Origin: Leptodactylus fallax
Lineage: Eukaryota > Chordata > Amphibia > Anura > Leptodactylidae
Length of the DNA stretch: 64,000 bases
NCBI GenBank assembly: GCA_947044405.1
Contig: CAMRHE010000331.1
Coordinates: forward strand, 434,001 to 498,000
Reading direction: 5' to 3'
Shown: positions 10,616-64,000 of the stretch, piece after piece
How the letters are laid out: the number at the start of each line of letters is the position of its first letter
Position numbering within the stretch: position 1 is the first letter of the stretch
Translations under genes and position numbers: made by a program
Notes under the pieces: generated by a model
The model's input: the letters and a program-made list of their open reading frames with translations, nothing else
Told to the model about the DNA's origin: nothing
Databases searched by the model: none

Positions 10616-15375
<4,760 letters not shown>

Positions 15376-23036: not shown

Positions 23037-23083
<47 letters not shown>

Positions 23084-33167: not shown

Positions 33168-35283
33168 ATGGAAAGAGACAGGAACAAGATGGCGGAAAGT
33201 CTATTAAATCTCACCCTAGAGATCATCTACCAGCTTACTGGAGAGGTGAGAGATTCTGATGATGTCACATTACATCATTCTTATCTATAGTAATAACAGA
33301 TGATATGACCGGAGAGGTGATGGACTCTGGACATGTATGTAGTGATATTTATTAATGTGTCTCCCCATAACCAGGATTACACAGTAGTGAAGAAGACCTC
33401 TAGTGGGCGCTGTCAGGCTCCTGTGTATGAAGGATATGGAGGAACCCTGAACCCAATCCCGGGGCCTCCACCTCTCCCCCTGATACAGGAGAAGATCAAT
33501 GGACAGAACATCCTAGAACTCACCAACAAGATGCTGGAGCTGCTGACTGGAGAGGTGACACTGCTGGGAATGCTGGGACATTATACAGTAACTGGAGGGG
33601 TCTGGGTGATGACTGTATCATTGTGTTGTCAGGTTCCTATAAGGTGTCAGGATGTCGCTGTCTATTTCTCCATGGAGGAGTGGGAGTATTTAGAAGGACA
33701 CAAGGATCTGTACAAGGAGGTGATGATGGAGGACCACCAGCCCCTCACATCACCAGGTAATCGGCCATTTTTGGTTCACCAGAATCAGAAATCCAAGTTA
33801 ATTATTTTTTTTTTCCTTTGACATTGTTATGTGAGTCTTTGTTTTCACGAGACTTGTTATATTTTTTAATGGAACCATATTGGGGGTTTATATCACTTAC
33901 TGAATAATTTTTATGAACCTTATTGAGGGAATTGAAAAAAAAGGCAATGTTTTTTGCTTGAAGTTTTGCCTTGTAAATTTTTGCTTTACTCAAATTATTA
34001 ACTTTATTCTATTTGTCAGTACAATTAATAAATGTGTAATTTTCTTATTTGGGTCACTGACGTTGCAGTTACAGCAATTTTTTATAAATACCCATATGAG
34101 GGCTTGTTTTTTGTAGGACAAGTTCTATGTTTTGAATGGGCCATTATAATGTATTGTTTAAAAAGAAATAGAAAAGAAAAGCACTAAAAAATATACTATA
34201 GATTTTTTTTTTTTTATGTTGTTCACAGCGCACTGTAAATAATGTGGAATTTTATTATATGGGCTGTTAGAAAAGTTATTTTTATGCTGTTCTTCTTGTA
34301 GGGTTGAACATGCTATCACATTTATCAAATTCTCAAATGTCTTGTAGTTTGTATGGACATTTTTGTATAGAAATGTTATAAAATATTAATATGATTTTTT
34401 TTTTACAGATTATAAAGCAGAGGATCATGGTATCAAACAAGATCCATATGAAGAACATGTCATTACCCCAGATATACCCTCAGCCCTTCACAGGAAAGAT
34501 CTATCATCTGATCCTATTATACACGTCCAATCTTCTGATTCATCACAGACTGTTAGACACGATAAAAGTCAAAGAAGAGGCGTTATAAATCTGAGAATTC
34601 GCACAGGAGAGAAGCCATTTTCATGCTCATATTGTGGCAAATGTTTTATCGAGAAATCAGAACGTAATAGACATCAGAAAAGTCACACAGGGGAGAAACC
34701 ATTTTCATGCCCAGAATGTGGGAAATGTTTTATCCAGAAATCAGATCTTGCTAGACATCAGAGATCTCACACGGGGGAGCAGCCATTTTCATGTTTGGAA
34801 TGTGGGAAACGTTTTAGAGTTCAATATAATCTTGTTGCACATCTGAGAATTCACACGGGGGAGAAGCCGTTTGTCTGTTTAGAATGTGGGAAAAGATTTA
34901 CTCAAAAACCATCTCTTGTTGTACATCAGAGAACTCACACAGGAGAGAAGCCATTTTTATGTACAGAATGTGGGAAATATTTTACTCAGAAATCAAGTCT
35001 TTATGTGCATAAGAGAGCTCACGCAGCAGCAAAGCTAATTTCACAATCAGAAAGTGTGAATTCTGATCTTGTTAAACATCAAAAATTTCGCACTGGGAAG
35101 AAAGAGTTTTCATGCCCAGAATGTGGGAAATGTTTCTCTCGAAGATCAAATCTTCTTGGACATCAAAGAACTCACACAGGAGAGAAGCCATATTCATGTT
35201 CTGATTGTGGCAAATGTTTTACTCTGAAATCAACTTTATTAAAACATGGGAGAATTCACACAGGAGAGAAGCAATATTCTTGA
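33168..35283 (+). CDS. C2H2 zinc-finger gene D with FAX/KRAB-like N-terminus (4 coding exons)
   Basis: Coding exons are 33168-33245 ([15 protein letters not shown]), 33375-33554, 33633-33756 (KRAB A-box-like) and 34409-35283 (fingers). Together they give 418 codons in frame. The acceptor TTTCAG|GTTCCTACAATA at 33106/33107 precedes the ATG. The finger exon begins later than in its paralogues: a deletion of about 80 bp relative to gene C removed the usual acceptor and the first 42 exon bases. The internal TTTTTTTTTTACAG|ATTATAAAGC now serves, with phase unchanged. Intron 2 is stop-free and 78 bp. Gene C is the closest relative, and the last introns are homologous (TCGGCCATTTTTGGTTCACC). If the new acceptor is not used, this copy would be broken. 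Confidence 0.82.
33780..34390. repeat. Frog interspersed repeat in the last intron of gene D
   Basis: CCCATATGAGGGCTTGTTTTTTG (34090) and GGACAAGTTCTATGTTTTGA match the intron of gene C at 23082. The similarity extends across most of the intron, so it was duplicated together with the gene rather than inserted twice. Confidence 0.6.
34409..35283 (+). CDS. Zinc-finger exon of gene D: 7 intact fingers plus 1 degenerate
   Basis: Begins [18 protein letters not shown] directly after the new acceptor, without the [14 protein letters not shown] leader. Fingers have helices [36 protein letters not shown] and [10 protein letters not shown] dead finger ([13 protein letters not shown], no Cys) and then SRRSNLLGH and TLKSTLLKH follow. 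Linkers are TGEKP-like, one changed to TGEQP. Compared with gene C, one finger of the middle block is missing. The frame ends TGA 35281-35283. Confidence 0.92.
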
Positions 35284-40838: not shown

Positions 40839-41312
40839 TGTGGGAGGATAGGCTCAGTGGTAGCAGCAGCAGACCCAGACAGTCAGAGACGGACACAAAA
40901 ATTGTGGTGTAAACAGATTTTACCCTATGCGTTAGTATGAGTGACTAACTATACAAAGAACACCCTAACTGTACGTGTGGCTTGCTCCAGCCTCACGGTC
41001 AACAAACAGGGCAAAAACAATAGCAGTAGTTCACACCAGCGTCTCACCAACTTTCACTGTGTTAAGACAGAACCCGACTCCTCCTTTCTCCCCCAGGAAC
41101 TGCTCAGTAGTGAGAACTGGCCAACCTTTTATAGGCCTTTAATGAGGCCCAGCTTCCACCTGTGGTTGAAGGCTCCTTCCTAGTAGGAGAGGAAGAGGTT
41201 AACAAAAGACAGCCTTCTCACAGCAAAGGTTTTACCTGATTTACCACACATAAGTAAGGAATCTGGGAGAGAGATAGCGATCTTCCAGAATCTTACCTGT
41301 CACCATCTCACA
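40839..41312 (-). repeat. 3' LTR of the Gmr1-like Gypsy element
   Basis: TGTGGGAGGATAGGC to CACCATCTCACA on the + strand (TG...CA on both). It is flanked on the element side by CCCTCCCCCTTT, the polypurine tract read on the + strand. It lacks an ~80-bp segment (ATTTATTTTACAAAAATACG region) present in the other LTR. Confidence 0.9.
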
Positions 41313-41419
41313 TACCCTCCCCCTTTGTTCGAACCTATAGGGGCGAACATTTTTCGCCATCATACAGTGTGCCCTGGTTAGAGCATCTGCATTCCCTTGT
41401 AACCTACCGGATCAGTGCT

Positions 41420-42905
41420 CTACCTTAAATTTGAAATTTTGTAAGGTGAGGAACCATCTAGTGACTCAGGCATTTTTCTCTTTGGCCTGAGACATCCATG
41501 TGAGAGGGGAGTTGTCAGTAACCAGCATAAAATGTCGGCCCAGCAAGTAATACCGTAGAGATTCCAGTGCTCATTTGATGGCCAAACACTCCCTTTCCAC
41601 AATACTGTAATTCCTTTCTGCAGGAGTAAGTTTTCTACTTAAGTATGTGACTGGATGTTCCTCATCTTTAATTTCTTGTGAAAGCACTGCACCTAACCCT
41701 ACATCAGAGGCGTCAGTCTGTACCACAAATTCTTTGGCATAGTCGGGAGTAATCAAAACTGGCTGCTTACAGAGGACTGATTTTAGCTCCCGGAATGCGC
41801 CCTCAGCCTCTTCACTCCACTTGATGAGACTAGATTTACCTCCCTTGGTAAGGTCAGTTAAGGGAGCTGCAATAGAGGCAAAATTGGGTATAAACCTGCG
41901 ATAATACCCCATCATTCCCAGGAAAGCCCTCGCTTCTTACTCAAGGGACGGGGCCAATTCTGGATAGCCTCTACTTTATTAACCTGAGGTTTTATTATCC
42001 CCCTTCCTATTGTGTACCCCAAATACCGGGCTTCTTCAAGGCCCAAGGCACACTTCTTGGGGTTAGCAGTTAGCCCAGCTGCCCAAAGGGAATCTAGTAC
42101 AGCATGGACTTTCAGCAAGTGACTTTCCCAATCAGGACAGAAGATAACAATATCATCAAGATAGGCTGAAGCGTACCTGCGATGTGGCTTAAGGATTTTG
42201 TCCATCAGTCGCTGGAAGGTTGCAGGAGCACCATGTAACCCAAAATGCATAGTCACGTACTGAAACAGACCATCTGGGGTGACAAACGCTGTTTTTTCTT
42301 TAGCCCTCTCTGAGAGGTACCTGCCAGTACCCCTTTGTTAAGTCGAGAAATACCTGGCAGATCCCAGCCTTTCAATCAGTTCATCTACTCTTGGCATCAA
42401 ACTTGGAATTTTCATTTAATTTACGAAAATCATTACAAAACCTGATTGTACCGTCAGGTTTGGGAATCAGAACAATTGGATTGGACCAGGCTCTCTTAGT
42501 CTCTTCAATCACCCCGAGGGCTAACATATCGTTTACCTCCTTGGATATGGCCTGTTTATGAGCTTCAGGTATTCGGTACAGCTTTAGATTGACTCGTACC
42601 TGCGGCTCAGTGACAATGTCATGCTCTATCAGATCAGTACGCCCAGGTAACTCAGAAAATACATCATTATTTCTCTGTACAAATTTTTTTGCCTCTTGTA
42701 CCTGTACCCTGGATAGGGTCTCAGATATTTGTATCTCAGGAAAATCCTTACCAAGTGCGCCCCCTGTTTTAGCAGTAACCTCTCTAGGGGTACTTATGGC
42801 AGACAAGGATTCTCTGTCTTTCCAGGGTTTTAACAAATTCATATGGTATATCTGTTCAGGTTTTCTCCTGCCTGGCTGAAAAACCTTGTAGTTTACATCA
42901 CCCAC
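41420..42905 (-). pseudogene. Gypsy reverse transcriptase and RNase H (Gmr1-like element)
   Basis: Continues directly from the integrase C-terminus (IYHMNLLKPWKDRE). Blocks are NPIVLIPKPDGTIRFCNDFR (about 42460), FGLHGAPATFQRLMD, SAYLDDIVIFCPDWESH (YxDD box, about 42150), RYLGYTIG, then YRRFIPNFASIAAPLTDLTK, VVQTDASDVGLGAVLSQ (RNase H Asp) and ERNYSIVERECLAIK. Frame changes near 42381, 42256 and 41600. It copies element RNA into DNA in the family; this copy is broken. Confidence 0.92.
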
Positions 42906-43697
42906 ATTTTCAATTATTTCTTAAGGGCCTTGCCACTTGGCTAGAAATTTACTTTCTACTGTGGGTACAAGCACTAACACTCGATCACCGGGGTTGAAGG
43001 TTCAGAGCTTAGCCTTCCTGTTATAAACACGGCCCTGAGCCAACTGGGCTTGCTCCATATGCTCCTTTATAATTGGCATTACTGCCGAAATTCGGTCTTG
43101 CATCTGGGTAATGTGCTCAATAATTCTACGGTACGGAGTTTGTTCCTGTTCCCACATTTCCTTAGCAATATCAAGGATTCCCCGTGGGTGTCTACCTTAC
43201 ACTAATTCAAACAGAGAGAAACCTGTGGAGGACTGGGGTACCTCTCAGATTGCAAACATGAGATATGGCAGCAAACAATCCCAACCCTTGCCATCTTTGC
43301 TAACCACCCTTTTTAACATTCCTTTAAGGGTTTTATTAAATCGCTCAACCAGGCCGTCTGGGGGTGATATACAGAGGTTCTCAGATGTTTGATACTCAGG
43401 AGCTTACACATCTCTTTCATTACTTTGGACATAAAGGGGGTCCCTTGATCGGTCTGGATCTCTTTAGGTATACCTGTCCGAGAAAACATAAAAAAGAGCT
43501 CCTTTGCAATTAACTTTGCTGAAGTATGTCTGAGGGGCACAGCTTCAGGGTACCGGGTAGCATAGTCTAATACCACTAATATATACTGATGTCCCCAAGT
43601 GGACTTAACAAGAGGACCCACCAAATCCATGGCTATACATTCAAATGGGACCTCTATAATAGGCAGGGGTACTAAAGGACTCCTGAAGTGTGACAGT

Positions 43698-44141
43698 TGT
43701 GAGAAAATGAAGGGTGTGGTTTGGGAGAACAGGTATGTTCCAGCCAGGCAGTTAAAGGGTGTGTGTTAGAAGCCCACAGCAGGGAGGTCACCTGACTAAT
43801 TAAGGCCTGATATAGGCTGTGTCAGAGCTAGGAGGTGGCACTACATGGAGGAAGCTGTCCTGTGTATCTTGATCCTGCATGAAGGTAATTCTGTGCCACC
43901 CGTTTGTAGTAACCAGAGCGAGAGTCTGGCAGCCAGGCTCCTGTACAGAAAGGGAACGTTTCTGTGTTACTTATTTCTCAGCCGAGAAGGGTTTTTTTTT
44001 GTTGTTGTTTTCTGTTCATGTCTTTGTAAAGGCAAACTGTTTATGCACCAAGTGAATAAACTCCAAACTTGAGTGTGATCCAGTCTCTGTGTCCCTGTTT
44101 CCTGCACTGCTACCAAGCATCTACCTGAGCGGTTCCCCACA
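43698..44141. mobile_element. Solo LTR (family 2), 444 bp, nested in the Gypsy integrase
   Basis: Starts TGTGAGAAAATGAAGG and ends GCGGTTCCCCACA, flanked by CAGT at 43694-43697 and 44142-44145. AATAAA at 44055. It splits the integrase frame of the host element exactly between the zinc-binding and core domains. Confidence 0.9.
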
Positions 44142-44314
44142 CAGTGGAGTGGTTAATTGGCACACCGGGCATGAGCTACAATAATCTCGCACGTCTATCC
44201 ACCCCGGCCAATAAAAATGCTGTAATATGCGCTCTTTGGTTTTCTCACACCCCATATGTCCTCCCAGCACATGCTTATGGGCTAATTCTAGAACCACTTT
44301 TTGAAAGGGCTGGG

Positions 44315-45254
44315 TGTGATGATTCTGCCTAAATATGGCCATAACTCAGCTATATTTTGGTCTCTGGGTATAGGATATCCCTTCTTCCTTGCTTGCATAC
44401 TGTGAGCAGCTACAAGCCTAGGTGCATATTGGCAGTAGCGTCTAGGCTGGAACAATAGGGCTCCATTGTATTCCTATACAGCCCTGGCTGATCAAACAAT
44501 AGTGCATTGTTCAAGCCTGGGCTGTTGACCAGATATGACTGATAACGGTATCAATTCACTTTGTCTCATCTACATACAAAGGGTCTGAACGTGATTGAAT
44601 TAACTCATCAGACATACTGTCACCAGTGACCTCATTCTGGGAGGGGGCATAAAGGGTATAAAAGATGAGGTAAGAGGTCTGTGAGAAGAGATATTGCAGG
44701 AGATTACACTATGGAGATTATGCTATGGAGTTTTGGGCTGAGACCATCACAGACTTCCACTGAGACAGACTTTGACTGAGATGCTACTATGAGCAGGCAG
44801 GTTGGAATGCTGCTGCTGACGATGATGAGCCTACAAGAGACTGTGAGAGACTGTTATGAGAGCATGCAGGCGGGATTATCGTTTTAATGCCACATGCTGA
44901 AAAGCCTCCACTGGTGACTCACACATGCCATGTGTGAGTGTTGGACTATAGAACCACATCAAGGACATATGTGGTAAAGTAATCATTTCACCTTTAATCC
45001 CTTTTATTTTATTTGTACTGTATCTTGTAACTAGTAACTGTTAATGCTTGCATATGTCTGCATATCTGTTCTGATCTGTATATGTTAGATTTTAATACCG
45101 ACCCATTTAGGGGTTAATAAATATATAAAATTTAGAAGGCTTGTCTTGTATTTATCTGGTGAACCCGGCACTCACTGGAGGTGAGTATGGTTTTTATATG
45201 AAAGAGGACTCACGGTGTGGCCAAAGCGGTTTGGCGCACGGAGGATCTTTCACA
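44315..45254. mobile_element. Solo LTR (family 1), 940 bp, nested in the Gypsy element
   Basis: TGTGATGATTCTGCC to ATCTTTCACA with perfect 5-bp duplications CTGGG at 44310-44314 and 45255-45259. Same family as 8040-8902, and about 80 bp longer through an internal segment near 44690-44880. Confidence 0.94.
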
Positions 45255-45303
45255 CTGGGGTACCACCAATTGTTCAATAACGTCACCTCTTATTTGGTCT
45301 ACC

Positions 45304-45915
45304 CTATATAACAGGTCTTGGTTCATGGCAAAATAAGGAAATTTCTTGGTCAGCCCCTGGATACTGGGACTTACCATTTATCACCTTAACTTTTTCTCTG
45401 GCATGAGACAAGTTTGGATCCCTGAGTTGAGCTGTACCAAAATTGTCATGGGACACCTCAAGTTCCGGCATTTCTCTCTGGCCTTTAGTGTCGCCAGCTA
45501 GCACAGTCAGAGGAAAGCTATTTTCTTCTGTGACTACCGCTGGAACTGCACTGTCCGGATCAGAAGGCTCAGGGTCCACCTTGGGCAACCTTTCACAGAC
45601 AGCATCATTAGTGTAGGGAACCTTCTGGTTTTTCCACAGGTTCCAAAACATAGGAAAATCTCTTCCAATAATCACATTGTGGAACAAGGACTTGACCACG
45701 CCAACCTGGTGACAGGCTATACCACAGGTAGTGTCTATAGTGACCTCTGCAATGGGGTATTCTCTGATTTCACCATGGATGCACAAAACACCAACAGTAC
45801 GTCCATTGTATAATGCAGGGTCTATCACAGTGGCACGCACCAGGGTCACCACACTCCCAGAGACCAAGAGAGCGGAAACAGGGCGCCCCCCCCCCCCCCC
45901 ACAGTTACCACACAC
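45304..45915 (-). pseudogene. Gypsy aspartic protease (catalytic Asp lost)
   Basis: After a zinc-knuckle-like CGNC and a G-run (14 C on the + strand at about 45887), the frame reads RPVSALLVSGSVVTLVRATV. The flap-side NVIIGRDFPMFW block lies about 80 residues on. In retropepsins the first block carries Asp-Ser/Thr-Gly; here the Asp position is Val (one base), so the enzyme would be dead. The C-terminal extension of about 100 residues leads towards the integrase. Confidence 0.8.
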
Positions 45916-45924
45916 ATTTGGGGA

Positions 45925-46428
45925 TCACAGTCTGTTGCAAGTGGTGCTAGACTGGGTGTACCTGTCCAAGACCACCCTTTCCACCATCTGTGCAGGGGTG
46001 GTCTCTTCAGGCTGTAGCCACTTTTTTACCAGGTACACGAGGTCATGCATTTGAGACCTGGGTGGGAGATTTTCGGAAAAAGTCCAATGATGTACCCTTC
46101 CGGCTCGCACATGCATATTTACTCCAAGACGCACCAGGATCTCACTCCTCAACGTGAGATAATCTCTAGCTGCTGTCTCACACAGATCGTAATAAGCCTT
46201 TTGGGGTTCCCCGGTTAAGAAAGGCGCCACGACATTGGCCCACTGTTCCTTTGGCAGCTTTTCATGTTCAGCAACTTGCTCAAAGACATGAAGATATGCC
46301 TCTACGTCGTCAGTGGACGTCATCTTCTGTAGTGAAGTTTGCACAGCTGCTTGAGCAGTGGGTCTCGCCATCTGAGTCTCAGCAGAAGTTTCTCCTACTG
46401 CCTTCTGACCAACAAAGGTCTCAGTCAA
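45925..46428 (-). pseudogene. Gypsy gag with SCAN-like capsid domain
   Basis: About 167 residues. DDVEAYLHVFEQVAEHEKLP and AYYDLC form the N-terminal capsid lobe. The C-terminal lobe (SQMHDLVYLVKKWLQPEETT PAQMVERVVLDRY) has the L-x-x-L...W-L-x-P-E-x-x-T-x-x-Q-x-x-E-x-x-V-L pattern of SCAN domains. SCAN domains of mammalian zinc-finger proteins are thought to derive from Gmr1-like Gypsy capsids. The frame is intact across this part but the knuckle region beyond is disrupted. Confidence 0.85.
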
Positions 46429-46660
46429 TACAGTCAGCTATTTAATGAACATCATACTCATTTCTCGTTGCCATTTTTCGGACGCCTCTATGACACGCTG
46501 TTGACACCTCTCAGCATCCAGCTGGGCCTGTCCAAGCAGCTTAACCAAGTCCTCCATGGTGGCAGCGTCCTTTTTTGCCTCTCCTACTGCCTTCACCCAG
46601 GACATAAGGTGGAGAGAAAAAAAAGTATCTATCTCTTTAAGACTTGTTTTAAACTGGGTC

Positions 46661-46682
46661 TACTCACATCCGAAGCACCAAA
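46661..46682 (-). other. Primer-binding site of the Gmr1-like Gypsy element
   Basis: Read on the - strand, TGGTGCTTCGGATGTGAG follows two bases after the 5' LTR end (CCTCCCACA). The TGG start fits priming by a tRNA 3' CCA; the tRNA is not identified. Confidence 0.6.
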
Positions 46683-47145
46683 TGTGGGAGGATAGGCTCA
46701 GTGGTAGCAGCAGCGGACCCAGACAGTCAGAGACAGACACCAAAATTCTGGTGTAAACAGGTTTTACCCTGTGCATTTATTTTACAAAAATACGGCAAAA
46801 CAAAATTAGACTTAACAGTCAGACAAAACCATAACAAAAAACTGCTCGTCTGAGCGACTAACTATACAAAGAACACCCTAACTGTACGTGTGGCTTGCTC
46901 CAGCCACACGGTCAAAACAGGGCAAAATACAATAGCAGTAGTTCACATCATCGTCTCACCAACTTTCACTGTGTTAAGACAGAACCCGTCTCCTCCTTTC
47001 TCCCCCAGGAACTGCTCAGTAGTGAGAACTGGCCAACCTTTTATAGGCCTTTAATGAGACCCAGCTTCCACCTGTGGTTGAAGGCTCCTTCCTAGTAGGA
47101 GAGGAAGAGGTTAACAAAAGACAGCCTTCTCACAGTAAAAGTTGG
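46683..47145 (-). repeat. 5' LTR of the Gmr1-like Gypsy element (outer end truncated)
   Basis: Starts TGTGGGAGGATAGGC like its partner. Similarity stops after TTCTCACAGTAAAAGTT, about 95 bp short of the partner's CACCATCTCACA end, where flanking 48-bp repeat sequence takes over. Confidence 0.87.
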
Positions 47146-48950: not shown

Positions 48951-51900
48951 ATGGCTAGAAATGGGAACAAGATGGCGGAAAGTCTATTAAATCTCACCCT
49001 AGAGATCATCTACCAGCTTACTGGAGAGGTGAGAGATTCTGATGATGTCACATTATATCATTCTTATCTATAGTAATAACAGATGATATGACTGGAGAGG
49101 TGATGGACTCTGGACATGGATGTAGTGATATTTATTAATGTGTCTCTCCATAACCAGGATTACACAGTAGTGAAGAAGACCTCTAGTGGGCGCTGTCAGG
49201 CTCCTGTGTATGAAGGATATGGAGGAACTCTGAGCCCAATCCTGGGGCCTCCACCTCACCCCCTGATACAGGAGGAGATCAATGACCAGAAGATCCTAGA
49301 ACTCACCAACAAGATGCTGGAGCTGCTGACTGGAGAGGTGACACTGCTGGGAATGCTGGGACATTATACAGTAACTGGAGGGGTCTGGGTGATGACTGTA
49401 TCATTGTGTTGTCAGGTTCCTATAAGGTGTCAGGATGTCGCTGTCTATTTCTCCATGGAGGAGTGGGAGTATTTAGAAGGACACAAGGATCTGTACAAGG
49501 AGGTCATGATGGAGGACCACCAGCCCCTCACATCACCAGGTAATAGACATGACTATATACACATGGACTTCCATTATTTGTATGTACAGAATGAATTCAG
49601 TCCCTGTCTGTGTTTCCTACAGGTAGATCCAGTAAGAGGACAACACCGGAGAGATGTCCCAGTCCTCTTCTTCCACAGGATGATCAGGTAGATGGAGATA
49701 TTCCCTATGATGTGTAGACGGGCTGTGAAGTCCTTGTGGTCAGTCTTGGGTTATCCAGCAGTATTAGATGGTTTATACTTGTGTAATGAGAGGTGGAGAT
49801 GGAGGATAAAGCTGACCATAGACATTACATGTTGTCTGGATCTTCTCACAATCTTCTGTCTATGGAGACTGCTGGTTCCAGTAAGGAGTAGAGATTAGTG
49901 ATTTGGCACAAATCAAATTTGTTATGAGTTTCCCAAAAGTTTTAGATTTTAGTGACCACCAGGACCTCAGACCACATGAGCCTCCCCATAATGCCTTGCA
50001 GACAGCCCTCAGTCACTCAGGAGGATCTTTAGGTGAGAGGACATTGATGCACTGTATTGATTTCGGTGACCCATCATCTAATATCTATGTCCAGCTTCTA
50101 GAACAGCGACAGCTATTGGGCTCAGGTAACCCAATTTTTCCAGCTGTGATGACTTACATTATTTGTTTCACAGCTTTTAACTCAAGATAAAGATCTGGAT
50201 GCTATTGATGCTATATCCATAAGAATAAAAGAAGAGCCCTATGTGAGTGGTGATGGGAAGTGTGAGGAGGACATCCCTACAGGGAACCGCCCAGGTAAGG
50301 AGTCACCACTAGATAAAGCATGGAAGAGCCAAACCGACCATTTCCACCCCATTCTAAAATTTTTACAGCTTCCCAGTACATTGTACAGAATAATAAATGG
50401 GACCATTACAAAGTAAAATTTGTCCCGCAAACATTAAGCCCTCATAGGGCTCTGTGAACAGAAAAAATAAAATAGTTACAGGGTTTGGAAGACGAGGAGT
50501 CAAGAACGAAAATCGAAGGACTCCAGTTTTTCACATAAAACAATACAATATTGAGACATGGTAACAATGGCCATAATTCACAACACAGTGACTCCAAAGG
50601 GATGTAGTGAATAAAGTGGGTACTTTATTAGCCTATCGGTAGTGATGTTTCGGCTCACATCAGTTATTAACACGCCCACTTCTCACTTTATCTTTTTGGA
50701 TTGCACCCTTGTTTTTTGGTGATACAAAGAAATTATAAGTGGTTTAGACTGAGCGATGGAGAGATACAAGGGATCCTGGGCACTAAGCTATATGGTGCCC
50801 AAACTTTCTGATCCCAGTCCCGATTTGTATCCAAAATCAAAGTTTTTATTATTATTTTTTTTTTCCTATAATGTGGAGAAGCCTTTTGGGGTTTTACATG
50901 ATTAAAATCTTTGCATTTATCTCAATCCTTCGATCCCGGCTGTTTAACCCATTAGATGCCACGGTCAGTAGTGACCATGGCATAATAGTGGTTAAACAGA
51001 GCAGGGGGCCCATCTATCGGCTCCCCTGCAACATGATCATAAGGTGTTGATGATTTGGTATGGCCGCCAGGGATACTTCGCTGACCTAAGTATTGCAGTG
51101 TAGTATATCAGCCATCAGATGGTTGCACAGACAAGTCCTCTAGTGAGATTTTTTTTTAAAAAGTTTAAGATATTAAAAAATAATTACAAATCCCCTCTTT
51201 TCTTGCCATTAAAAATGTATCCTAATTTGATAATATTAAAAAGTAAACAAAAGTACATATCATGGGTATCGCTGTATCTGTGACAACCTGAACATACACA
51301 TTATCATGTTATTTAAGCCACACAATGAAGAACTATTTTTGGTTTTTTTTGTTCTTCCTGTCTCTGAAAAGAACTTGATCAAAAAGTTGTACGTATGCTA
51401 TAGTTGTCCAATAAGGAGTTAACTGCTCTCAATATTATTTTTAATTAAGCACTCAATATTCTTCTACACCCCGATTGAAAACAAGCTTTTAGAATGTAGG
51501 TTCTTCCCTCTGGAGCGCTGACCTCTTCTATGATCCTTTGTTGCACACAGTCTTTCCTGTATGAATAGGAACTCGCACCACAAATGTATTAGAATGTTTA
51601 TCTATCTATCTATCTATCTATCTATCTGACTCCCTCAGAGCTGCATTGTGCATTTGACCCCTGTTTATGCACGAAACACTGTGTGCATCAGAGAATCAGA
51701 AAGGAGGTCAGTGCATTGGAAGTGAGCACATAACTTCACAATAAAGTAGTCAATAAATTATTGGATAACTTTATACTACAGGATTATTTCAAATGGGGAG
51801 ACCAAAAAAATGACTGGTGGTGTTATGGTGTATTATTCAAAAATAATAAAATCCGTTTTCTTCTTGTCAGATGACAATACCCAGAGCTCGGAGGGACATC

Positions 51901-52769
51901 TGATATCTACAGATTATAAAGCAGAGGATCATGGTATCACACAAGATCCATATGAAGAACATGTCATTACCCCAGATATACCCTCAGCCCTTCACAGCAA
52001 AGATCTATCATCTGATCCTATTATACACGTCCAATCTTCTGATTCATCACAAAATATAAGTCACAGAAGGGGAGAACATCAAAGAGCTTACACTGGGGAG
52101 AAGGTACTTTTATGTTCAGAATGTGGCAAATGTTTTACCTATAAAGCAGATCTTGTTAGACATCAAAGAATTCACACAGGAGAGAGGCCATTTTCTTGTT
52201 CAGAATGTGGGAAAAGTTTTACAATGAAATCGCACATGGTTCAACATCAGAGAATTCACACAGGACAGAGGCCATTTTCTTGTTCCGAATGTGGGAAATG
52301 TTTTACTCAGAAATCGCACCTTGTTGACCATCATAGAGCTCACACAGGAGAGAAGCCATATTGGTGTGAAGAATGTGGGGAATATTTTCCTTGGAGATCA
52401 CATTTTGTTAGACATCAGAGAACTCAAGGAGGAAAGAAGACTTTTCCATGTTCAGTATGTGGGAAATGTCTTGCCAAGAAATCAGATCTTGTTGAACATC
52501 AGAGAATTCACACCGGGGAGAAGCCGTTTTCATGTACCGAATGTGGGAAATGTTTTACCCTAAAGTCATCTCTAAATGCACATCAAAGAATTCACAGAGT
52601 AAAAAAATTTTCATGTAACGAATGTGGGAAATGTTTTAATCGCAAATGGCATTTTGTTACACATCAGAGAATTCACACAGGAGAGAGGCCATTTTCATGT
52701 TCCCAATGTGGAAAGTGTTTTAACCAAAAGTCAATTCTAATGGTTCATCAAAGAATTCATATAGGGTAG
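48951..52769 (+). CDS. C2H2 zinc-finger gene E with full FAX/KRAB-like architecture (6 coding exons)
   Basis: The most complete copy: exons 48951-49028 ([15 protein letters not shown]), 49158-49337, 49416-49539 (KRAB A-box-like [11 protein letters not shown]), 49623-49687, 50174-50294 and 51871-52769 (fingers), all GT-AG, joining to 488 codons. Exons 4 and 5 together begin and end in phase 1, so they form a cassette that can be skipped or lost without shifting frame, as seems to have happened in A-D. Intron 2 is 78 bp and stop-free. Upstream lie the satellite array and a promoter-like segment. Expected role: nuclear sequence-specific transcription regulator; partners of the KRAB-like segment in frogs are not established from sequence. 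Confidence 0.9.
49623..50294 (+). CDS. Exons 4 and 5 of gene E (linker cassette with IKEEP motif)
   Basis: Exon 4 (49623-49687) encodes [22 protein letters not shown]. Exon 5 (50174-50294) encodes [45 protein letters not shown] fits a sumoylation consensus (hydrophobic-Lys-x-Glu). Both exon types are familiar from other frog FAX zinc-finger genes. No equivalents were found in genes A-D in this window. Confidence 0.85.
49690..50170. other. Intron 4 of gene E
   Basis: Partly open sequence without a recognised domain; no transposon ends seen. Confidence 0.4.
50295..51870. other. Last intron of gene E: inverted frog repeat and (TCTA)n
   Basis: 50330-50520 is the same repeat as 9640-9860 in opposite orientation (GAGCCCTATGAGGG-type core read on the - strand). 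51598-51627 is a (TCTA)n tract of 7-8 units. The rest is unassigned. Confidence 0.5.
51871..52769 (+). CDS. Zinc-finger exon of gene E: 8 C2H2 fingers, one missing a histidine
   Basis: [14 protein letters not shown] leader, acidic linker, then eight fingers with helices [63 protein letters not shown] and NQKSILMVH. Finger 4 ends HQRTQ, so the last zinc-binding His is Gln. The linker after finger 6 is shortened to HRVKKF. Helices differ more from the paralogues than the N-terminal exons do, as expected if DNA specificity diverged. Ends TAG 52767-52769. Confidence 0.94.
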
Positions 52770-55341: not shown

Positions 55342-56172
55342 TGTTAGGAAACAGATGCAGTGTAGAGCTAAGTAGTGAGTCCCAGCACCAGTCAAACCTA
55401 ATTAGAATGGTAAAAACCGTGCTGAACGTCCCGCGCTCTCCCAACCGCACTGAACCCCACCCCCCAGAGATGTTCACCAGGGCCCCTGATGGTGGGGATG
55501 GACTTGGAAGCTACTGACGGGCAGAGCGGCACGGGTCAGAGAGCGGAGAGCGCTGGACGCACAGCACACCACCAGACACAGCAGAACAGAAACCGGAATC
55601 ATTTACCAGTAGTAACAGGAGTAGGGATGTCAGTCTGCAGAGTAGAAAGCAGCAGATGGCTGCAGGCAGTAGATGGCAGCAGAGTTCCAAAGAGTTGTCG
55701 TACGGTCCGAGTCGTCAGCGTGAGGTTAGCGAAGTACAAAAGGGAAATCCAAATAGATGTGTCAAACAAGCCGGGTCGGTAACAGGAGTGCAGAGCGGTA
55801 CCAAATCCAAGTTCAAGAGGACGAAGTCTGAAGGCAAGCCGGGGTCGTTAGCAGGAGAGGGAAACCAAGGTACAAAATCGGAAGGCCAGAAGGATAGTCA
55901 AACAACAGAAGCAGGAGGTCTAGGCAGGAGATAACAGGACAGGAAATATGCAACGCTTGCTACCAGGGGAAACTGAATAGCCAGCGATTACCTGGAGCGG
56001 AAGTCCCGAAAATAAAGATTCCGACCGAGCACCTACTCCAAAACGGAATCCCGTGGGGAAGGACTGGCAAATCCCGCATACCGTCACGGAGGTTCCAGCC
56101 TGCCTCCCTAGTGGCCGGAAGCAGCACTTAGAGGATAGGACCGCTGCGGAGTTTCCGGTCCGGCTCCGTACA
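55342..56172 (-). repeat. 3' LTR of the chromovirus, 831 bp
   Basis: TGTTAGGAAACAG to GGCTCCGTACA on the + strand, next to the polypurine tract (TAACCCCCCCTTC read on +). The pol frame runs about 45 bp into it. Confidence 0.85.
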
Positions 56173-58775
56173 GTAACCCCCCCTTCTACGAGGGCCCACC
56201 GGGCCACTAAAGGCTGGACCAGGCTTGAGGGGAAACTTTTGGTGAAAATTTTTAATTAAAGTTGGTGCATGGACCAACCTGACTGACTCCCAGGAACGAT
56301 CCTCCGGCCCATACCCCTTCCAGTGTATCAGATACTGTAGAACACCTCTGAGCCTACGTGAGTCCAAAATTCTAGCCACCTCAAATTCCTGGTTCCCCTC
56401 AACTAATACAGGTGGAGGAGGGTTAACAGATGGAAGGAGATGAGGAATATATTTCTTCAACAGGGACTTATGGAAAACGTTGTGAATCTTGAGAGAAGGA
56501 GGAAGAGCCAGTGGGAAGGACACAGGGTTAATGATTTCAGTGACCTCATAACGACCAACAAATTTAGGCCCCAACGTATGAAAAGGGATTTTTAGCCTCA
56601 AATTCTTAGAGGAGAACCAAACCTTCTCCCCCAATGAAAACGTAGGACCCACCGAAGGAGCCCAATCAGCTATAGTCTTAGTAACTACCTCAATGTTCTG
56701 TAAATTACGCTGTACCTGAAGCCAGACAGTATGTAACGCCTCCGCCTCCCTATTCACCTCTGGAGTGACGGTGGTAGGAGAAAGAGAAGAAAAGCGGGGA
56801 TGGAAAGCGTAATAACAGAATAAAGGTGAAGAGTTTAAGGCAGCGTGGTGATGATTGTTCATAGCAAATTCCGCCATAGATAAATAGTTAACCCAATCAG
56901 ACTGGTTAGCAGAAATATAGCATCTCAAATACTGTTCCAAAGTCTGATTGAAGCGTTCAGTTTGTCCGTTGGTTTCAGGATGGTAAGCAGAGGGAAAAGA
57001 TAACTGGATCCCCAGAAGACTGCAAAAGCTCTCCAAAACTTAACAAGAAACTGAACGCCTCTGTCAGATGCAATGTTGTCCGGAATACCATGGAGCCTGA
57101 CCACATGGTCAAAACCAAACGGGATAATGTCTTGGCATTAGACAATTGGGCGAGAGGAACAAAGTGACACATCTTGCTAAACCTATCCACTATGGTCCAC
57201 ACAATAGTCTTTTCCCCAGAAATCGGTAAATCCGTAATAAAATCCATAGATATATGTGACCAAGGTCTGTCAGGTACCGGTAAAAAGAGTAATTCCCCAG
57301 AGGGTCTAGACCTCGGAACCTTGGCTCTAGCACATACCGAACATGCCGACACATAAGCCACAATGTCCCGAGACCTTCAATGCCACCAGTAATGTCGGGA
57401 CACTAGCCTCTTAGTACCCGAGATGCCTGGGTAGCCACATAACACGGAGTTGGAGTTCCTGTAAGACCCTAAGCCTCAACTGAGATGGGACAAACAGTTT
57501 ACCCTCGGGTGTCTCTGGAGGGGCAGAGTGCTGATTTTGCTTGATCTCGGATGCTAAGCCCAACGAGACAAAAGAAGCCACAATCCCCTGGGGGAGAATT
57601 GATTCTGGCTGGGAACAATCAGAAGAACCAAAACTTCTAGACAAAGCATCTGCTCTAATATTTTTGGACCCTAGCCTAAAAGTGACAACGAAATTGAACC
57701 TGGTAAAAAATAGTGCCTACCTAGTTTGTCTAGGCTTCAATCTCTTAGCAGATTCCAGAAATTCCAAATTCTTATGGTCAGTTAAGACAGTTATCTTGTG
57801 TCTAGCTCCCTGTAGGAAATGTCGCCACTCCTCAAAAGCCCATTTGATGGCCAATAGTTCTCAGTTACCAATATCATAATTCCTTTCGGAAGAGGAGAAT
57901 TTCCTGGAGGAGAAAGCACAGGGTCTGAGTTTAGTGAAAGAGGAAGGTCCTTGGGACAAGACAGCCCATACTCCTACTTCCGAGGCATCAACTTCAACAA
58001 TAAGAGGTTCGCTAAGATCGGGGTGAATAAGAACCGGAGCTCTAGAAAACGTTTGCTTTAAAAAAATCAAATCCATAGCCTCCTGATTCCAGTTTATCAA
58101 ATCCTCCCCCTTGTGAGTGAGATCAGTCAGCGGTTCTGCTATAGTGGAAAAATTGGCAATAAACCTCCGATAGTAATTTGAAAAGCCAAGAAACCTTTGC
58201 AAGGCCTTTAGTGAGGTGGGTCGAACCCAGTTGAGCACAGCCTGAACCTTGGCTGGGTCCATGCTGATGGCCGAGGAAGACAAGACATAACCCAGAAAAG
58301 ACAATTGCTGGACTCTAAAAAGGCATTTTTCCCACTTAGCAAATAACTTGTTGTCCCTCAGGACTTCCATAACAGACCTAACATGCTTAACGTGAGACTC
58401 CTAGTCTTGTGAAAAAAACAAAATATCATCTAATTAAACAATGACAAAATGACCAGTAAAATTCCGAAAAATGTCATTCACAAAATTCTAAAATACTGTG
58501 GGTGCATTACTCAAGCCGAAGGGCATTACCAAGTACTCGTAATGGCCCTCAGTCGTGTTAAATGTGGTCTTCCACTCGTCTCCCTCCCAAATCCGAATAA
58601 GATTATAGACCCCTCTCAAATCTAATTTGGAAAAAAATTTAGCCCCATAAATCTGGTTTAATAAATCGGGAATAAGAAGCAGAGGATACTGGTTCTTCAC
58701 CGTAATCTTGTTTAGGGCCCGGTAATCAATACAGGGCCTCAAACCGCCATCCTTCTTTTTAACAAAAAAGAATCC
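56128..58775 (-). pseudogene. Chromovirus pol (RT, RNase H, integrase, chromodomain), broken
   Basis: From the N-terminus: [18 protein letters not shown] (58740), [14 protein letters not shown] (58490); the YxDD box near 58430 has its Tyr codon changed to a stop; FLGYVLSSSAISMDPAKVQA and VEVDASEVGVWAVLSQ of RNase H (58260-57960); CARAKVPRSRPSG and WSHISMDFITDLP of the integrase (57330-57250); [20 protein letters not shown] (56990); then the chromodomain VARILDSRRLRGVLQYLIHW KGYGPEDRSWE (56390-56300), which in chromoviruses binds modified histone H3 to guide insertion. Several frameshifts. Confidence 0.93.
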
Positions 58776-58995
58776 GGTGGTGGTCGGGGGAGGGGGTGGA
58801 ATAGTATTGGTGACATTCTGTTTCCGGAAAAGGAAAACGGAATGTCACAGGAAAATCAGAAAATGTGCCTGGGGCCCCGGCGATCTGGGCAAATATACAT
58901 TTTTGATAAAGTAAGTTAGTTAGAAGTTAGGCGGTGGGGAGGGTGTTTAGTTTAGGCTTAAATTATCATTTTATAGTGGACAAACCGTTTAAGGC
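58776..58995 (+). repeat. Interspersed repeat copy 2, right part
   Basis: GGGGGAGGGGGTGGAATAGT to GTGGACAAACCGTTTAAG matches 26440-26635. About 300 bp of the repeat present in copy 1 are missing at the retrotransposon junction. Confidence 0.75.
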
Positions 58996-59675
58996 TCAGC
59001 TTTGGCCCCTGCTCAACTTCTCCACACAACCGTCAGCCATGTACATTTTAGCAGCATTTACATTTCCCTTTCCTTCTCTGTCTGGCCCAGACCACCATGA
59101 TAGCTTCTTCACAACACGTCTCTACACTCAAGCTTACCATCATTCCCATCCCGTATTAGTTACCCCAAATGTCTCCTTTTGTGCCTCTCCCAGAGAATCT
59201 CTCCTTGACGATATGCTGTTGAGAAGCTGGTTGCAGATTGGACCCCTATGTTTACATCAGTAAGCACAAGTATAACTAACTAGATGACCAATCTGATACA
59301 AGTAGGAAAAAGGGACCCTGCCCGCAGGCTACAATCTATATGGGAAGGTTGGTGGACACAATGGGTGCCGGTAACAGTTCCTCCTATAGCGGCACAGTGG
59401 CAGCAGCGTTACTGTGTGTCGTCTGCTACTCTATAGAGATGAGTCTTCAGGTGACGTCTGAAGGTTTGGATTGTTGGGGAAAGTCTTATGGAAAACATGG
59501 ACAGGACACTGATACATCCGTGTGCCACGTGTAGTGTTTTTCATGGACATGTACAGGACAATTACACATATAGCTCTGCTACACACAAGTTACACAGCTC
59601 TACTACATGTAACATGCACATCACACACTGCTAGGTGCACATTACGAAGGTAACCATTACATGGATGTTACACAT
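58996..59675. other. Spacer with decayed 30-bp satellite
   Basis: 59568-59640 still shows GCTCTGCTACACACAAGTTA CACAGCTCTACTACATGTAA, a worn version of the satellite at 5995, 27155 and 47495. The rest has no gene (59340-59534 is open but has no recognisable domain). Confidence 0.5.
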
Positions 59676-60201
59676 TGTAAGTATGTGAGCCAGAGGGCGC
59701 TGTTGAGCGACCCAGGCCAGGCCAGAAAAGGCTCTCAGCCACGCCTTTGGGTGGGGGCATGTATCTCCAGTAGTCTGGAGTATCCTGCAGGAAGCAGGAG
59801 ATGGTGGACCCACCTGGACAGATAGACGGTCTGTGCCAGAAGTGCTCAGGTCCACAGGGGACTTTTGGTGGAGCTGAGCAATAGTCAGGACCAGCCAGGG
59901 ACAGAGAGGAAGTCTGTCCAAGAGGGCTGGGATCCAGAGAGGACTTACAGAGACTAAGTCAAGCTCTTATTGCCCCCCCCCCCCCCCAGAGGCTAGTTAG
60001 GGACTCAAGAAGTCAGTTAGTGCCCTAACTGTGGCCTAGGTGTTTGTTGTTTTGCTGTGTTGCAGTAAAGCTGAATAAAGCCACTTTTATTTACACTTGG
60101 ACCGTCTGAAAGCTATCTTTCCGGCGCCCAGTACCACGAACCACCGCTGTCCGGACCAGGACAAGCCGCCATTTTGAGTGTAATTCCCCTAAACTGTCAC
60201 A
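59676..60201 (+). mobile_element. 5' LTR-like sequence upstream of the myosin-tail frame
   Basis: TGTAAGTATGTGAGCC to CCCTAAACTGTCACA (TG...CA), about 526 bp. AATAAA at about 60073 is followed by roughly 125 bp, the layout of a polyadenylation signal and R/U5. TATGGTGGAGAATCGCGCGC lies directly after the end and looks like a primer-binding site (TGG start). The matching 3' LTR would be right of the window, so the call rests on structure only. Confidence 0.65.
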
Positions 60202-60203
60202 TA

Positions 60204-60221
60204 TGGTGGAGAATCGCGCGC
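60204..60221 (+). other. Candidate primer-binding site
   Basis: TGGTGGAGAATCGCGCGC begins two bases after the LTR-like CA end. Consistent with tRNA priming, but the tRNA was not identified. Confidence 0.4.
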
Positions 60222-60674
60222 AGAAAGAGATCCACGCAAGTCCTGGAAGACAAGTGTTTGGTGACTGCAGTACTGCTAAGTGTGCATTGTGGCCTACAGC
60301 TGGAAGAAATCTGTGATTTCAACTGAAGAAACCCAGGAGGGGGTGAGTGATTTGCAACATAGCAAGGTGAAAGTAAAACTCTGGATGAGGAATCCAGGGA
60401 ATGGACTTTGTGTATACTGTGGCACAGAAGTCTGTGAAGTGTTTGCTGATGGCAAGAAAATAAGCAATGTGTGTAGAAGCTGGATATTGCAAACAGTGTG
60501 AAAGGCTATGGTGCCATGTTGGTGTTTTCTGTGGAAGACAGAAGAAAATGCTGGTTGTTGTAGTGCCACATAAGTTAACTGTTTGAATACATGTGACTGC
60601 AGAAGATAGCAAAAAGTTGCTGCCGGTTGAACCCAAGGTTGCTGTGAAATATTGTGTAAGCTTGTTAGTAAACC

Positions 60675-63600
60675 ATGGGCAAGAAAAAGAGAATTTCAGC
60701 TTGTAAAAAAGCAGAGAAGTCATGCACAGGTGTATTAGTGCAGCAGTCTGAATGCAGAGAGACACAAAACCCAGAACAGATCAGGTGGAGTGCAAGTAAA
60801 GATAAAGGGTTGCATGAGAGTGACTCAGTTTTTCTAAAGCACCTCTGTTCTATGAAAGAATATGTCCCTGCTGACTGTATGACTATGACTATGTCTCATA
60901 CTGGAGTGCATCAGAGCGCCAAAGATGAAAATGTTGTGGTGCAGCAGCTTCAAGATGAGATTAAAACCATCAGGTTCATTTATGAAGATGAAATATCTGA
61001 TTGGAAATGGCAACTTGAGGTATCAGAAAGAGAGAACCTTAAGTTAAAGAAAGAGCTTGAAACTATAAAGAGTTCATATCCTAGTCATTGTGAAAATGTG
61101 GTACTGGGTTTGCCTGGAATGGACTGTGTCACTGAGAAGGAGTTTGCTGATATGAAATGTGCTCTATCTAATAAAGTTATACAGAGTGTAGAGCAAAAGC
61201 AAGTGCTTGAGAAGCAATTGCAGAATTTAAAGGAGCAGCATGTCCAAGACTCCATTGCCAAAGAGAGTGTCATTGAAAAATTAAGAGATGACCTTGAAAC
61301 TGCTAAACGTGAGAGAAGTGAATTTTTGCAGTGTCAGTCAGAATGTCTGGATGACCAAGTGAGGAAGTGTGAAAAGCTTTCGGTGGCATTAATTAACAAA
61401 GAAAATGAAATTGCAGAGCTGAGGAAGCATGTGTCTGACCAAGAGAGTGATTTAGAATCTGTGGTGCAGACATTGCAGTCAGAGCAAAACTTGCATGCAC
61501 TAAAGCAGGTTCGCCTAAATAGTGAAGTCAATGAATGACGGAGCAGAGCTGGAGTTCTGGAACAAAGAGAAAGGGAACTCAAAACTAGAATATGTAGCCT
61601 GGAGAGGGCGCTGTCAGGATCTTGTGAAGATAAAGAGAAATTGTCTGTTTTGATGCAAAATAAAGACAAAGATTTGATGGAAATGTCGTCTGTCCATGCT
61701 CAGAAAGTGCAAGCCTTACAGGAGAGTCACAAAAAAGTAGAGACTCAACTTCAAGAGCTGCAACTACAGGTCACAGAAGGGGACAGGTTTCAAGCGGAGC
61801 TGCTAGACAAGGCAAACAGACTACAGGTGGAATTGGATAATGTCACAGGGCTTCTTTCTCAAGCAGACAGCAAGTTTATCAAACTTTCCAAAGATTTTTC
61901 TACACTAGAATCCCAGCTTCAGGACACTCAGGAACTTTTGCAAGAAGAAACCCGTCAGAAGCTTGACCTTAGTACAAAACTAAAACAAATGGAAGATGAG
62001 AAAAATGGTTTCCTTGAGCAACTAGAGGAAGAGGAGATAGCAAAAAGAGATTTGACAAAGCAGATTTCAACACTACAGGCTCGGGCGACTGATATGAAGA
62101 AAAAAATGGAGGATAGTATTGGGTCCTTGGACTCTGTTGAAGAACTAAAGGAAAAGTTGCAAAAGGAGCTAGAAGTTACAAATCAACGGTTTGAGGAGAA
62201 GGTTGCTGCTTATGACAAACTTGAGAAGACGAAAATTAGACTGCAGCAGGAACTAGAAGATGTAGGTGTAGATCTTGATCATCAACATCGGATGGTGTCA
62301 AATTTGAAAAGGAAGCAGAAAAAGTTTGATCAGCTGCTTGGTGAAGAGAAGACTCTTTCTGCTAGATATGCAGAAGAACGTGACCGTGCTGAAGCAGAGG
62401 CCCTTGAATTGAAGGCCGAGTTAGAGAGGCTCAACAAGCAACTGTGCACTGAAATGGAGAAATTGGTTAGCTCCAAGGATGAAGTTGAGAAAAACCTGGA
62501 ATCTGTGCAGATATTGTATGAGAACAAAGCTAATGCTTATGACAAGCTGGAAAAGGCCAAGAGAGAATTGGACCTCCAGACAGAAGACATGAGGATTCAG
62601 TTTGAAGGAAACCTGTCTAATTTGTCTGCTGAGATTGTAGATCTAAAAATGCTTGTTGCTAAATTAAAGGTGCAAGTGAACAAGCAGGAGGAAATCAAGA
62701 AACAGCTGGAGTTTCAGATGAATCAAGTGAAGCGTGAATCAAAAATAAAGTTGGAAGAGCGCACTGTTCAGATTGAACAGTTAAAAACCGAAGTGGAATC
62801 TAAAAAAGAAGAATTGGATCGATTGCAGCAGTCTTTATCCAATACGGAACAGTCGGCATCTGCATCAAAGCTGCCAGCACTAGAAGATGAGAAGGACTCG
62901 CTGCAGAGCCTGTTAACCTCTAAAGAATCAGAGCTGTTATCCCTGGAAAATGTGATTCAAGAAACAGAGTCTTTATTCAACCAAGAGCAAGATAAGAGAG
63001 CCACTGAGATACGGGACTTGAATGAAAGACTTGACAAAAAGTCTGCAGATGAGCAGAAGCTTTATCAGAAGATGTTGGAGAATCAATCCAATATAATTCA
63101 GGGAACAGTGGGGGAAGCAGAAAATATTATCCAGGATGCTGACCTGACAAATGTTAGAAGAACATTGCAGAATGTCCTAGAATTAGGAAGCATAGTGGAT
63201 AAAGAGATGGCATCTACATCTGCTGCCATAGAAGATGTCAGGAAGATTGAGGAAGTTCTGCAAGTTGCAATAGTAAAAACAGAGATGGAGGCTGTGCAGA
63301 AAAATGTGGCAGTGAAGAAAGTTCCGGAACTGGAATCAGAGATTTGTGTGCTACAGAGGGCGTTAGAATTGAAGAAAGCTGCCAGCATAGAGGCAGAGAA
63401 AGCAGAACCATTAAGGCAGCCAGAACATGTAACCAAAAAGCATCTGGGTACTGACAGAAAAAACTGTGATGGTGAAAACTTGGTATCCCAATCCTCCAGT
63501 GTTAGCACAGGGAATGAAAATAACTCGGAGAATGTTGAGATGACAATGTCACCAGCTCCTGTACTGTCAGAAAGGGGTTGGCACGAAACTTCTTGCAATC

Positions 63601-64000
63601 TATCACAGTACCGCAACATGCCTCCAGGAAGTTATGCGTATGAGAGAGAGGAAGTAAGACTAGAGTGTGGAAGTGGTCCTTCTGCTGCCGTACAGGTGCG
63701 GACGCATTATACAGAAACCATTCCAATATATGATGTGGCAGTTGATAAAGACATACCAGAAAATGTAGTTCAGCGTGATCTATTATGTGAGGGTGTACTG
63801 TATGGCCCTCGTGCAGAAGGAGAAGATATTGCAGTACAGAGCTTGTGTATCTCAAACAAAGAGGAGAGCAAGCAGCCTATGTCTCCTAAACTTCTAAGCC
63901 TTGATGGTGATGGCAAAGTTCGCTTTGAGATGAAGGTTACAGAAAAGGTACCCGTGAAATATTTATACTCTAAAGACATTGATGTACATGAAGTACGTGT
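60675..64000 (+). CDS. Long intronless frame with nonmuscle myosin II tail-like coiled coil (LTR element gag-like or retrogene), runs off window
   Basis: Starts at ATG 60675 in a strong context (AAACCATGGG) about 470 bp after the LTR-like end and stays open to the window edge, about 1108 codons, except for one TGA at 61536-61538. Residues 1-287 are mostly coiled coil after a basic [12 protein letters not shown] start. From about 61725 to 62520 it reads like the rod of nonmuscle/smooth-muscle myosin II heavy chain ([54 protein letters not shown]). In host genes this region is spread over several exons; here it has no introns, so it was copied from mRNA. Further heptads run to about 63400. A non-coiled part ([35 protein letters not shown]) that I do not recognise follows. 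No motor domain, IQ motif or retroviral enzyme is seen in the window. It is either a retroelement that took up a host myosin cDNA, or a host retrogene behind an old LTR. Confidence 0.7.
61725..62520 (+). other. Myosin II rod-like segment within the long frame
   Basis: About 265 codons, colinear with the central-to-distal rod of MYH9/MYH10-type myosins as I know them, from [11 protein letters not shown] through [21 protein letters not shown]. Between [12 protein letters not shown] and [12 protein letters not shown], about 15-20 residues of the usual myosin sequence are missing, an in-frame deletion. After SSKDEVEKN the similarity fades and [11 protein letters not shown] repeats part of the earlier block ([11 protein letters not shown]), hinting at internal duplication. 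Confidence 0.75.

Follow-up and report, generated by a model that had tools for sequence, protein, structure and literature searches.

Two-gene captures are known among acute transforming retroviruses, as in E26 (gag-myb-ets) and GR-FeSV (gag-actin-fgr); to our knowledge, capture of several genes by vertebrate elements with long terminal repeats (LTRs) is represented mostly by single tumour isolates. Plant LARD elements have a non-coding internal region and TR-GAG elements a recognisable gag; both have LTRs, a primer-binding site (PBS) and a polypurine tract (PPT), lack pol and are presumably moved in trans. The maize LTR element Bs1 holds segments of three host genes in one chimeric frame (PMC13317346), and LTR elements of bdelloid rotifers carry an extra open reading frame, ORF3 (PMC5408684). 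Here we describe an LTR element at the right end of a 64,000-nucleotide stretch of the frog Leptodactylus fallax (assembly GCA_947044405.1, contig CAMRHE010000331.1, positions 434001-498000); this whole stretch is called the window, all coordinates are window positions unless a locus label precedes them, and the 2.5 Gb assembly was searched for further copies. We consider it highly probable that the element belongs to a large family of non-autonomous LTR retrotransposons, in which a selected one-frame mosaic of captured host blocks sits on an old coiled-coil backbone, the product self-associating and the element being copied in trans.

LTRs and mosaic frame of the window copy

The original prediction, made from the letters of the window, had proposed an LTR-like TG...CA segment with AATAAA; the LTR starts exactly at the predicted base, 59676, and its partner was found at 64373-64889 (517 bp), starting 372 bases beyond the window end. 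Ten of 517 aligned bases differ between the two LTRs (1.9%), a PPT precedes the 3' LTR, and the whole element measures 5,214 bp, its internal region of 4171 bases consisting of the leader and the mosaic frame. The predicted TGG-starting PBS is also present, and the sequence TATGGTGGAGAAT after the 5' LTR recurs in 12 of 12 other copies with a readable 5' LTR edge; we take its first 11 bases to be the complement of the 3' end of tRNA-Ala. From the window alone the LTR reading was weak, because many combinations of TG...CA with primer-like sequence arise there (35 of at least 7 bases, the longest, of 11 bases, being that of the 59676 LTR, while three unrelated sites match a tRNA over 12 bases), and no second copy of this LTR was found inside the 64 kb. 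It was settled by the 3' LTR, the ACAT target duplication and the other copies. The features of the element are as follows.

59672..59675, + strand: left copy of the target-site duplication ACAT; the right copy directly follows 64889
59676..60201, + strand: 5' LTR, 526 bp, TGTAAG...GTCACA, paired with the 3' LTR
60074..60079, + strand: AATAAA polyadenylation signal in the LTR
60202..60674, + strand: leader
60204..60221, + strand: PBS, 2 bases after the 5' LTR, starting with TGG
60675..61535, + strand: N part of the frame, about 80 low-confidence residues and then long predicted helices; 241 of 283 residues match the backbone of the related element L040
61536..61538, + strand: TGA stop of the window copy; the frames of copies L016 and L018 have no stop here
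61539..61733, + strand: backbone coiled coil (C1-65), 55/65 identical to L040 residues 286-350
61734..62480, + strand: putative captured myosin-9 rod block (C66-314), human MYH9 about 1249-1514; falls between L040 residues 350 and 351 and is absent from element L039
62481..62687, + strand: backbone (C315-383), 59/69 identical to L040 residues 351-419; its last part weakly resembles the myosin rod at about 1054-1083
62688..63248, + strand: putative captured HIP1R block (C384-570), HIP1R about 491-805, interrupted in frame by two gaps, one of about 110 and one of about 16 residues; between L040 residues 419 and 420
63249..63413, + strand: backbone (C571-625), like the myosin rod at about 1085-1132
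63414..63908, + strand: putative captured Bucky ball (Buc/Velo1) block (C626-790), frog Buc 124-288; 125/165 identical to Buc of Leptodactylus fuscus
63909..64000, + strand: start of the hnRNP-U-like SPRY block, continuing beyond the window to a stop at about 64008 in the window copy

No pol (reverse transcriptase, RNase H, integrase) was found in a Pfam scan of the frame or in the 372 bases read up to the 3' LTR. Since these 372 bases are all that separates the window end from the 3' LTR, pol cannot fit, and the window element is thus a non-autonomous LTR retrotransposon by structure; the extension to the right proposed by the original prediction gave the second LTR and the target duplication, but not the pol.

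The frame comprises 288 codons from 60672 (ATG at 60675) and one TGA, after which 820 codons, their residues numbered C1-820, stay open as far as the window reaches. A long frame without introns and with the myosin rod at its centre was correctly foreseen: its second piece is colinear with human myosin-9 residues 1243-1603 (PDB 9syu, E 1.2e-90) and Pfam Myosin_tail_1 matches the window frame with E 3.5e-86. The myosin part is rod only and intronless, with no motor domain found in the frame by Pfam. The view of the element as the carrier of a transduced myosin cDNA was half of the matter; myosin coding sequence was captured, but myosin appears by similarity to be one of at least four host donors, with HIP1R, Bucky ball and hnRNP U. 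The captured pieces are intronless, and pieces of at least two host genes sit in one frame between the LTRs.

In a protein search that scored the best 7992 candidates by shared words (451-1435 residues long) and gave 64 matches at E 0.001, separate parts of the frame were matched by HIP1R and Bucky ball of frogs and by myosins of vertebrates; none of these 64 was the full mosaic protein, each covering at most 47% of the query. Marmoset and tamarin entries among the protein matches included many predicted proteins with a myosin tail as the sole listed domain and no motor. Pairwise alignment placed HIP1R (about 491-805) and Bucky ball (124-288) consecutively in frame, and a 90-residue query, C535-624, matched myosin-9 1069-1133 (E 2.1e-5) and the HIP1R-family chain 1r0d (E 9.8e-5). 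A jumping alignment filled the N part with decoy matches; its short segments are therefore no evidence, and we used the long ones and those confirmed otherwise. Two readings were discarded. The window myosin block lacks about 17 residues, which is not a capture junction, as many other copies carry those residues and the gap is thus a feature of some copies only; C318-354, considered as a second myosin piece, aligns as backbone in L039 and L040.

No gag family was found in Pfam scans of the window frame or of L040, where a highly diverged gag in the N part would escape; an NCBIfam scan gave generic coiled-coil or weak chance matches at most, and a search of viral contigs gave no useful match. 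A single-sequence structure model of the N part predicts helices at 80-134 and 155-287 (mean predicted local distance difference test score, pLDDT, 72), though a simple heptad test marked 0 of 6 N-part windows.

The right end was read in other copies as well. In 10 of the 14 copies read from the Bucky ball end the frame is unbroken to the edge of the 3' LTR; the four in which a break or cut comes earlier are L017, L019, L026 and that of the window. Pfam SPRY was matched by L019 (E 2.9e-6), L016 (E 3e-7) and L040 (E 4.5e-13), and by L039 with 24.3 bits, under the cut-off; among solved structures the DDX1 SPRY domain comes closest (E 1.3e-11). A presumed human hnRNP U piece matched L038 in 52 of 77 residues (E 1e-35), and with this presumed hnRNP U piece 99 places of 2340 candidates were scored in the genome, many of them intronless and stopping at about residue 183. 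The right-end block thus resembles the SPRY domain of hnRNP U, the fold being named from Pfam and the protein from the presumed hnRNP U sequence and the consistent genome matches.

All 46 places scored with HIP1R in the genome (of 5009 candidates) were intronless pieces, 43 of which end at residue 808-821 and three at 767-786. The predicted HIP1R of Mixophyes fleayi showed, by eye, an apparent duplicated stretch of the same coiled coil as the captured one. For Bucky ball, 59 places of 2389 candidates were scored: one is the host gene (C69:2494179-2496062, 93% identical to that of Leptodactylus fuscus), to which the window block is identical in 132 of 162 residues, and the other 58 are confined to the captured stretch and what closely adjoins it (query residues 115-333). 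In trees the Bucky ball and HIP1R blocks group with hyloid frogs with weak support. Synonymous divergence (dS) between the Bucky ball blocks and the host gene is 0.03-0.05, which suggests a fairly recent capture; between subfamilies, long backbone comparisons give a dS of 0.11-0.16 and short ones 0.05-0.23.

Copies, selection and assembly stages

The search for other copies proposed by the original prediction was rewarded. All copy counts are lower bounds: 40 LTR matches were scored of 4668 candidates, and with the 820-residue query at least 55 places carrying the mosaic frame were scored of 5740 candidates. Among these 55, 40 cover essentially all 820 residues at 90-100% identity, 23 of them (window included) without a stop in that stretch, and the other 15 give a match split near residue 290; open frames of family copies reach 1334 residues. 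We fetched 27 further loci from this genome (28 stretches; labels L0xx and C139 denote copies), of which 17 retain all or some of the internal region, whereas 10 are apparent solo LTRs. Identical 4-bp flanks were found in 9 of 10 complete copies, L015 being ambiguous; three of the nine (L012, L014 and C139) lie inside AT repeats, so that their match comes cheaply. Clear identical flanks also border 8 of the 10 apparent solo LTRs, with L033 one base off and L030 in an AT repeat. The L018 copy (L018:4605-9537, minus strand, and L018:3174-4169) is interrupted, by eye, by a retrovirus-like element whose long frames resemble pol and env, and also by a Tc1-like transposase.

Selection has held the frame open. 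The ratio of nonsynonymous to synonymous divergence (dN/dS) between 17 copies was 0.58, with 135 of the 136 pairs, which are mutually non-independent, below 1; by block it was 0.61 for the N part, 0.40 for C1-60, 0.44 for myosin, 0.50 for C317-386, 0.66 for HIP1R and 0.47 for the rear backbone. Changes found in one copy gave 0.62, those in several 0.54 and those in all others 0.86, the last from 13 changes. Mean pairwise dS between copies is 0.068, far above what the LTR ages explain, and the 10 copies with both LTRs together show 9 stops, when 9.3 are expected since insertion from the LTR ages and about 45 if half of the mean pairwise dS had been unconstrained. Of 110 residues that are invariant across four reference myosins, 16 (14.5%) differ in the window myosin block; neutral simulation to this level gave 9.5-10.6 stops on average, and 0 of 400 runs under each of two mutation settings kept one stop or fewer. 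In the myosin-like piece of the rear backbone 11 of 24 invariant residues differ, so that this piece is either older than the myosin block or less constrained. The frame had been called young or selected: selected was right, but the window copy is not especially young, its LTR difference being the joint highest among ten copies (0.39-1.93%).

Related elements carry fewer blocks. Four of them, L038-L041, were picked non-randomly from the search results because their Bucky ball identity was high or their open frames were long. L040, complete at 3.7 kb, is flanked by GGTA at either end, has LTR stretches that agree at 94 and 98%, and carries a single frame of 773 residues that holds only backbone and hnRNP-U part. 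Besides the two stretches given above, C571-629 of the window aligns with L040 residues 420-478 (45/59) and C791-820 with 583-612 (26/30); myosin (C66-314) and HIP1R (C384-570) fall exactly between adjacent L040 residues, and the Bucky ball block falls between its backbone and its hnRNP-U part. Where the HIP1R block would sit, L040 has backbone that is continuous with the myosin rod up to residue 1132 (27 bits, in strongly biased composition), which argues that L040 shows the older state there. L041 has HIP1R, Bucky ball and a longer hnRNP-U piece. Bucky ball and SPRY are also present in L038 and L039, together with a HIP1R block that is free of the 110-residue gap; L039 spans the myosin site and reads straight through it without the myosin block. 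These block-poor relatives with uninterrupted joins point to stepwise, in-frame capture of host coding sequence. From the one site and the host origin of the blocks we infer that blocks were probably gained rather than lost, and the myosin block is, by these alignments, apparently a later insertion into an older mosaic that held HIP1R, Bucky ball and hnRNP-U-like SPRY. L013, L015 and L016 form a further subfamily, B (tree support 98/97); in L015 and L016 (about L016:3526-4182) some 180 residues in frame replace part of the Bucky ball block. A tandem repeat was also seen at the SPRY end of the L015/L016 subfamily.

Proposed mechanism and alternatives

The element would be copied in trans by the proteins of another, autonomous LTR element, and host pieces might be acquired when reverse transcription switches template to host mRNAs packaged alongside, with in-frame joins alone surviving. 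The mosaic protein would then be a long self-associating coiled-coil scaffold, gag-like or tethering RNA or germ plasm, that aids the spread of the element itself; a gag-like self-assembly role of the predicted coiled coil, suggested by the original prediction, is plausible. A bolder reading, which we hold less likely than not, is that the lineage has swapped its structural protein for a host mosaic built in frame piece by piece, the product packaging its own RNA or bringing it into germ plasm. According to PMC6219760, the BUVE region spans residues 23-136 of zebrafish Buc, and Buc did not bind a tested 20-kD nonmuscle myosin II construct, which speaks against a simple partnership of Buc and myosin. 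The captured Bucky ball block begins about at the end of BUVE (zebrafish and frog numbering compared by eye), so the known aggregation motif was not brought along. With the aggregation motif left out and Buc the least constrained block, germ-plasm targeting is kept here only as the bold reading.

Several observations, besides the non-independence of the copy pairs, weigh against a selected mosaic of captured host mRNAs. Between copies the Bucky ball block has a dN/dS of 1.00, that is, no constraint, and against the host gene 1.96, so not every block looks useful; two short backbone pieces compared with L040 gave 1.29 and 1.30. A strict model would set private and shared changes further apart than they are, 14 of 17 copies carry between 1 and 8 indels whose length is not a multiple of three relative to the window frame, and in neutral simulations to 8-10% change 2 to 10 of 400 runs keep one stop or fewer. 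Residues 47-679 of host Buc lie in one uninterrupted exon and frame, so this block need not derive from mRNA. Our searches also found no parent for the N part and C1-65, nor for the segment of about 180 residues in subfamily B.

The low divergence of the LTR pairs and the seemingly unconstrained Bucky ball block would suit passenger fragments, useless host mRNAs captured at random in a frame that is open merely because the copies are young. We regard this as quite improbable, since the copies diverge from each other more than their LTR ages allow and yet show the number of stops expected from those ages, far fewer than if half of that divergence had been unconstrained. Constraint on long intact frames could equally be expected if the frame were selected as a host gene and its many copies were by-products. 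This we judge very improbable: the constraint is common to many dispersed, LTR-flanked copies of several subfamilies, whose stops together equal those expected since their own insertions, a pattern of active elements and not of one conserved locus. Host pieces might instead serve as a shield, small RNAs against the element then striking essential oocyte genes while the protein does little. The donors are plausible as maternal genes. A plant review describes the conflict between silencing a captured fragment and harming the donor gene (PMC13317346). Shielding by RNA identity requires neither the selection on amino acids seen over the coiled-coil blocks (dN/dS 0.40-0.66) nor an open frame, and we hold it improbable. 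Intronless host sequence is what a processed chimeric retrogene made by a long interspersed element (LINE) next to an unrelated solo LTR would also show; we give this practically no credence, for it is rejected by the second LTR after the frame, the PPT, the PBS and the 4-bp duplications in copies at unrelated sites. The second LTR, the duplications and the copies likewise reject an ordinary MYH gene and a chance LTR. We therefore retain the trans-copied mosaic family as the explanation.

Neighbouring features and comparison with known systems

A separate LTR element lies at 40935-47143 (minus strand). Its LTR stretches agree at about 96%, it matches an integrase C-terminal domain, and its gag-like frame matches a SCAN domain; its LTR and primer site differ from those of the 59676 element. 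Directly left of the latter and facing away from it, a chromodomain Gypsy-type pol is present in pieces at 56128-58844 (minus strand). KRAB boxes and C2H2 zinc-finger frames occur at 4384-5112, 14443-15375, 22396-24430, 34390-35283 and 49104-52769 (four frames tested, the rest by eye), and this cluster contains related repeats of about 700 bp.

No element of the kind described here was found in the open-licence literature searched, the repeat databases Repbase and Dfam lying outside its scope, so that an unnamed entry may exist there. Elements graded from the backbone up to the four-donor mosaic appear to coexist in one genome, with many copies and many intact frames, so that the order, the junctions and the selection of each capture can be read; the series raises the question whether host scaffolds can stand in for gag.

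With LARD and TR-GAG elements the frog element shares LTRs, PBS and PPT without pol, and differs in that its internal region codes for a host-derived mosaic. Like the acute retroviruses it is a vertebrate LTR element with presumably spliced host coding sequence in a fused frame, defective and presumably helper-dependent; unlike them it has no recognised gag, is multicopy in the germ line, and has structural, endocytic, germ-plasm and ribonucleoprotein donors. According to PMC5408684, the bdelloid rotifer elements likewise take up foreign frames in modular fashion, but they retain gag and pol and add an ORF, whereas the frog mosaic is the sole long frame. Closest is Bs1 as described in PMC13317346, both being LTR elements with several host-gene segments fused into one frame; the frog elements differ in forming a vertebrate family that was scored at no fewer than 55 places, whose frame was selected and draws on four or more donors, and which has block-poorer elements beside it in the same genome.

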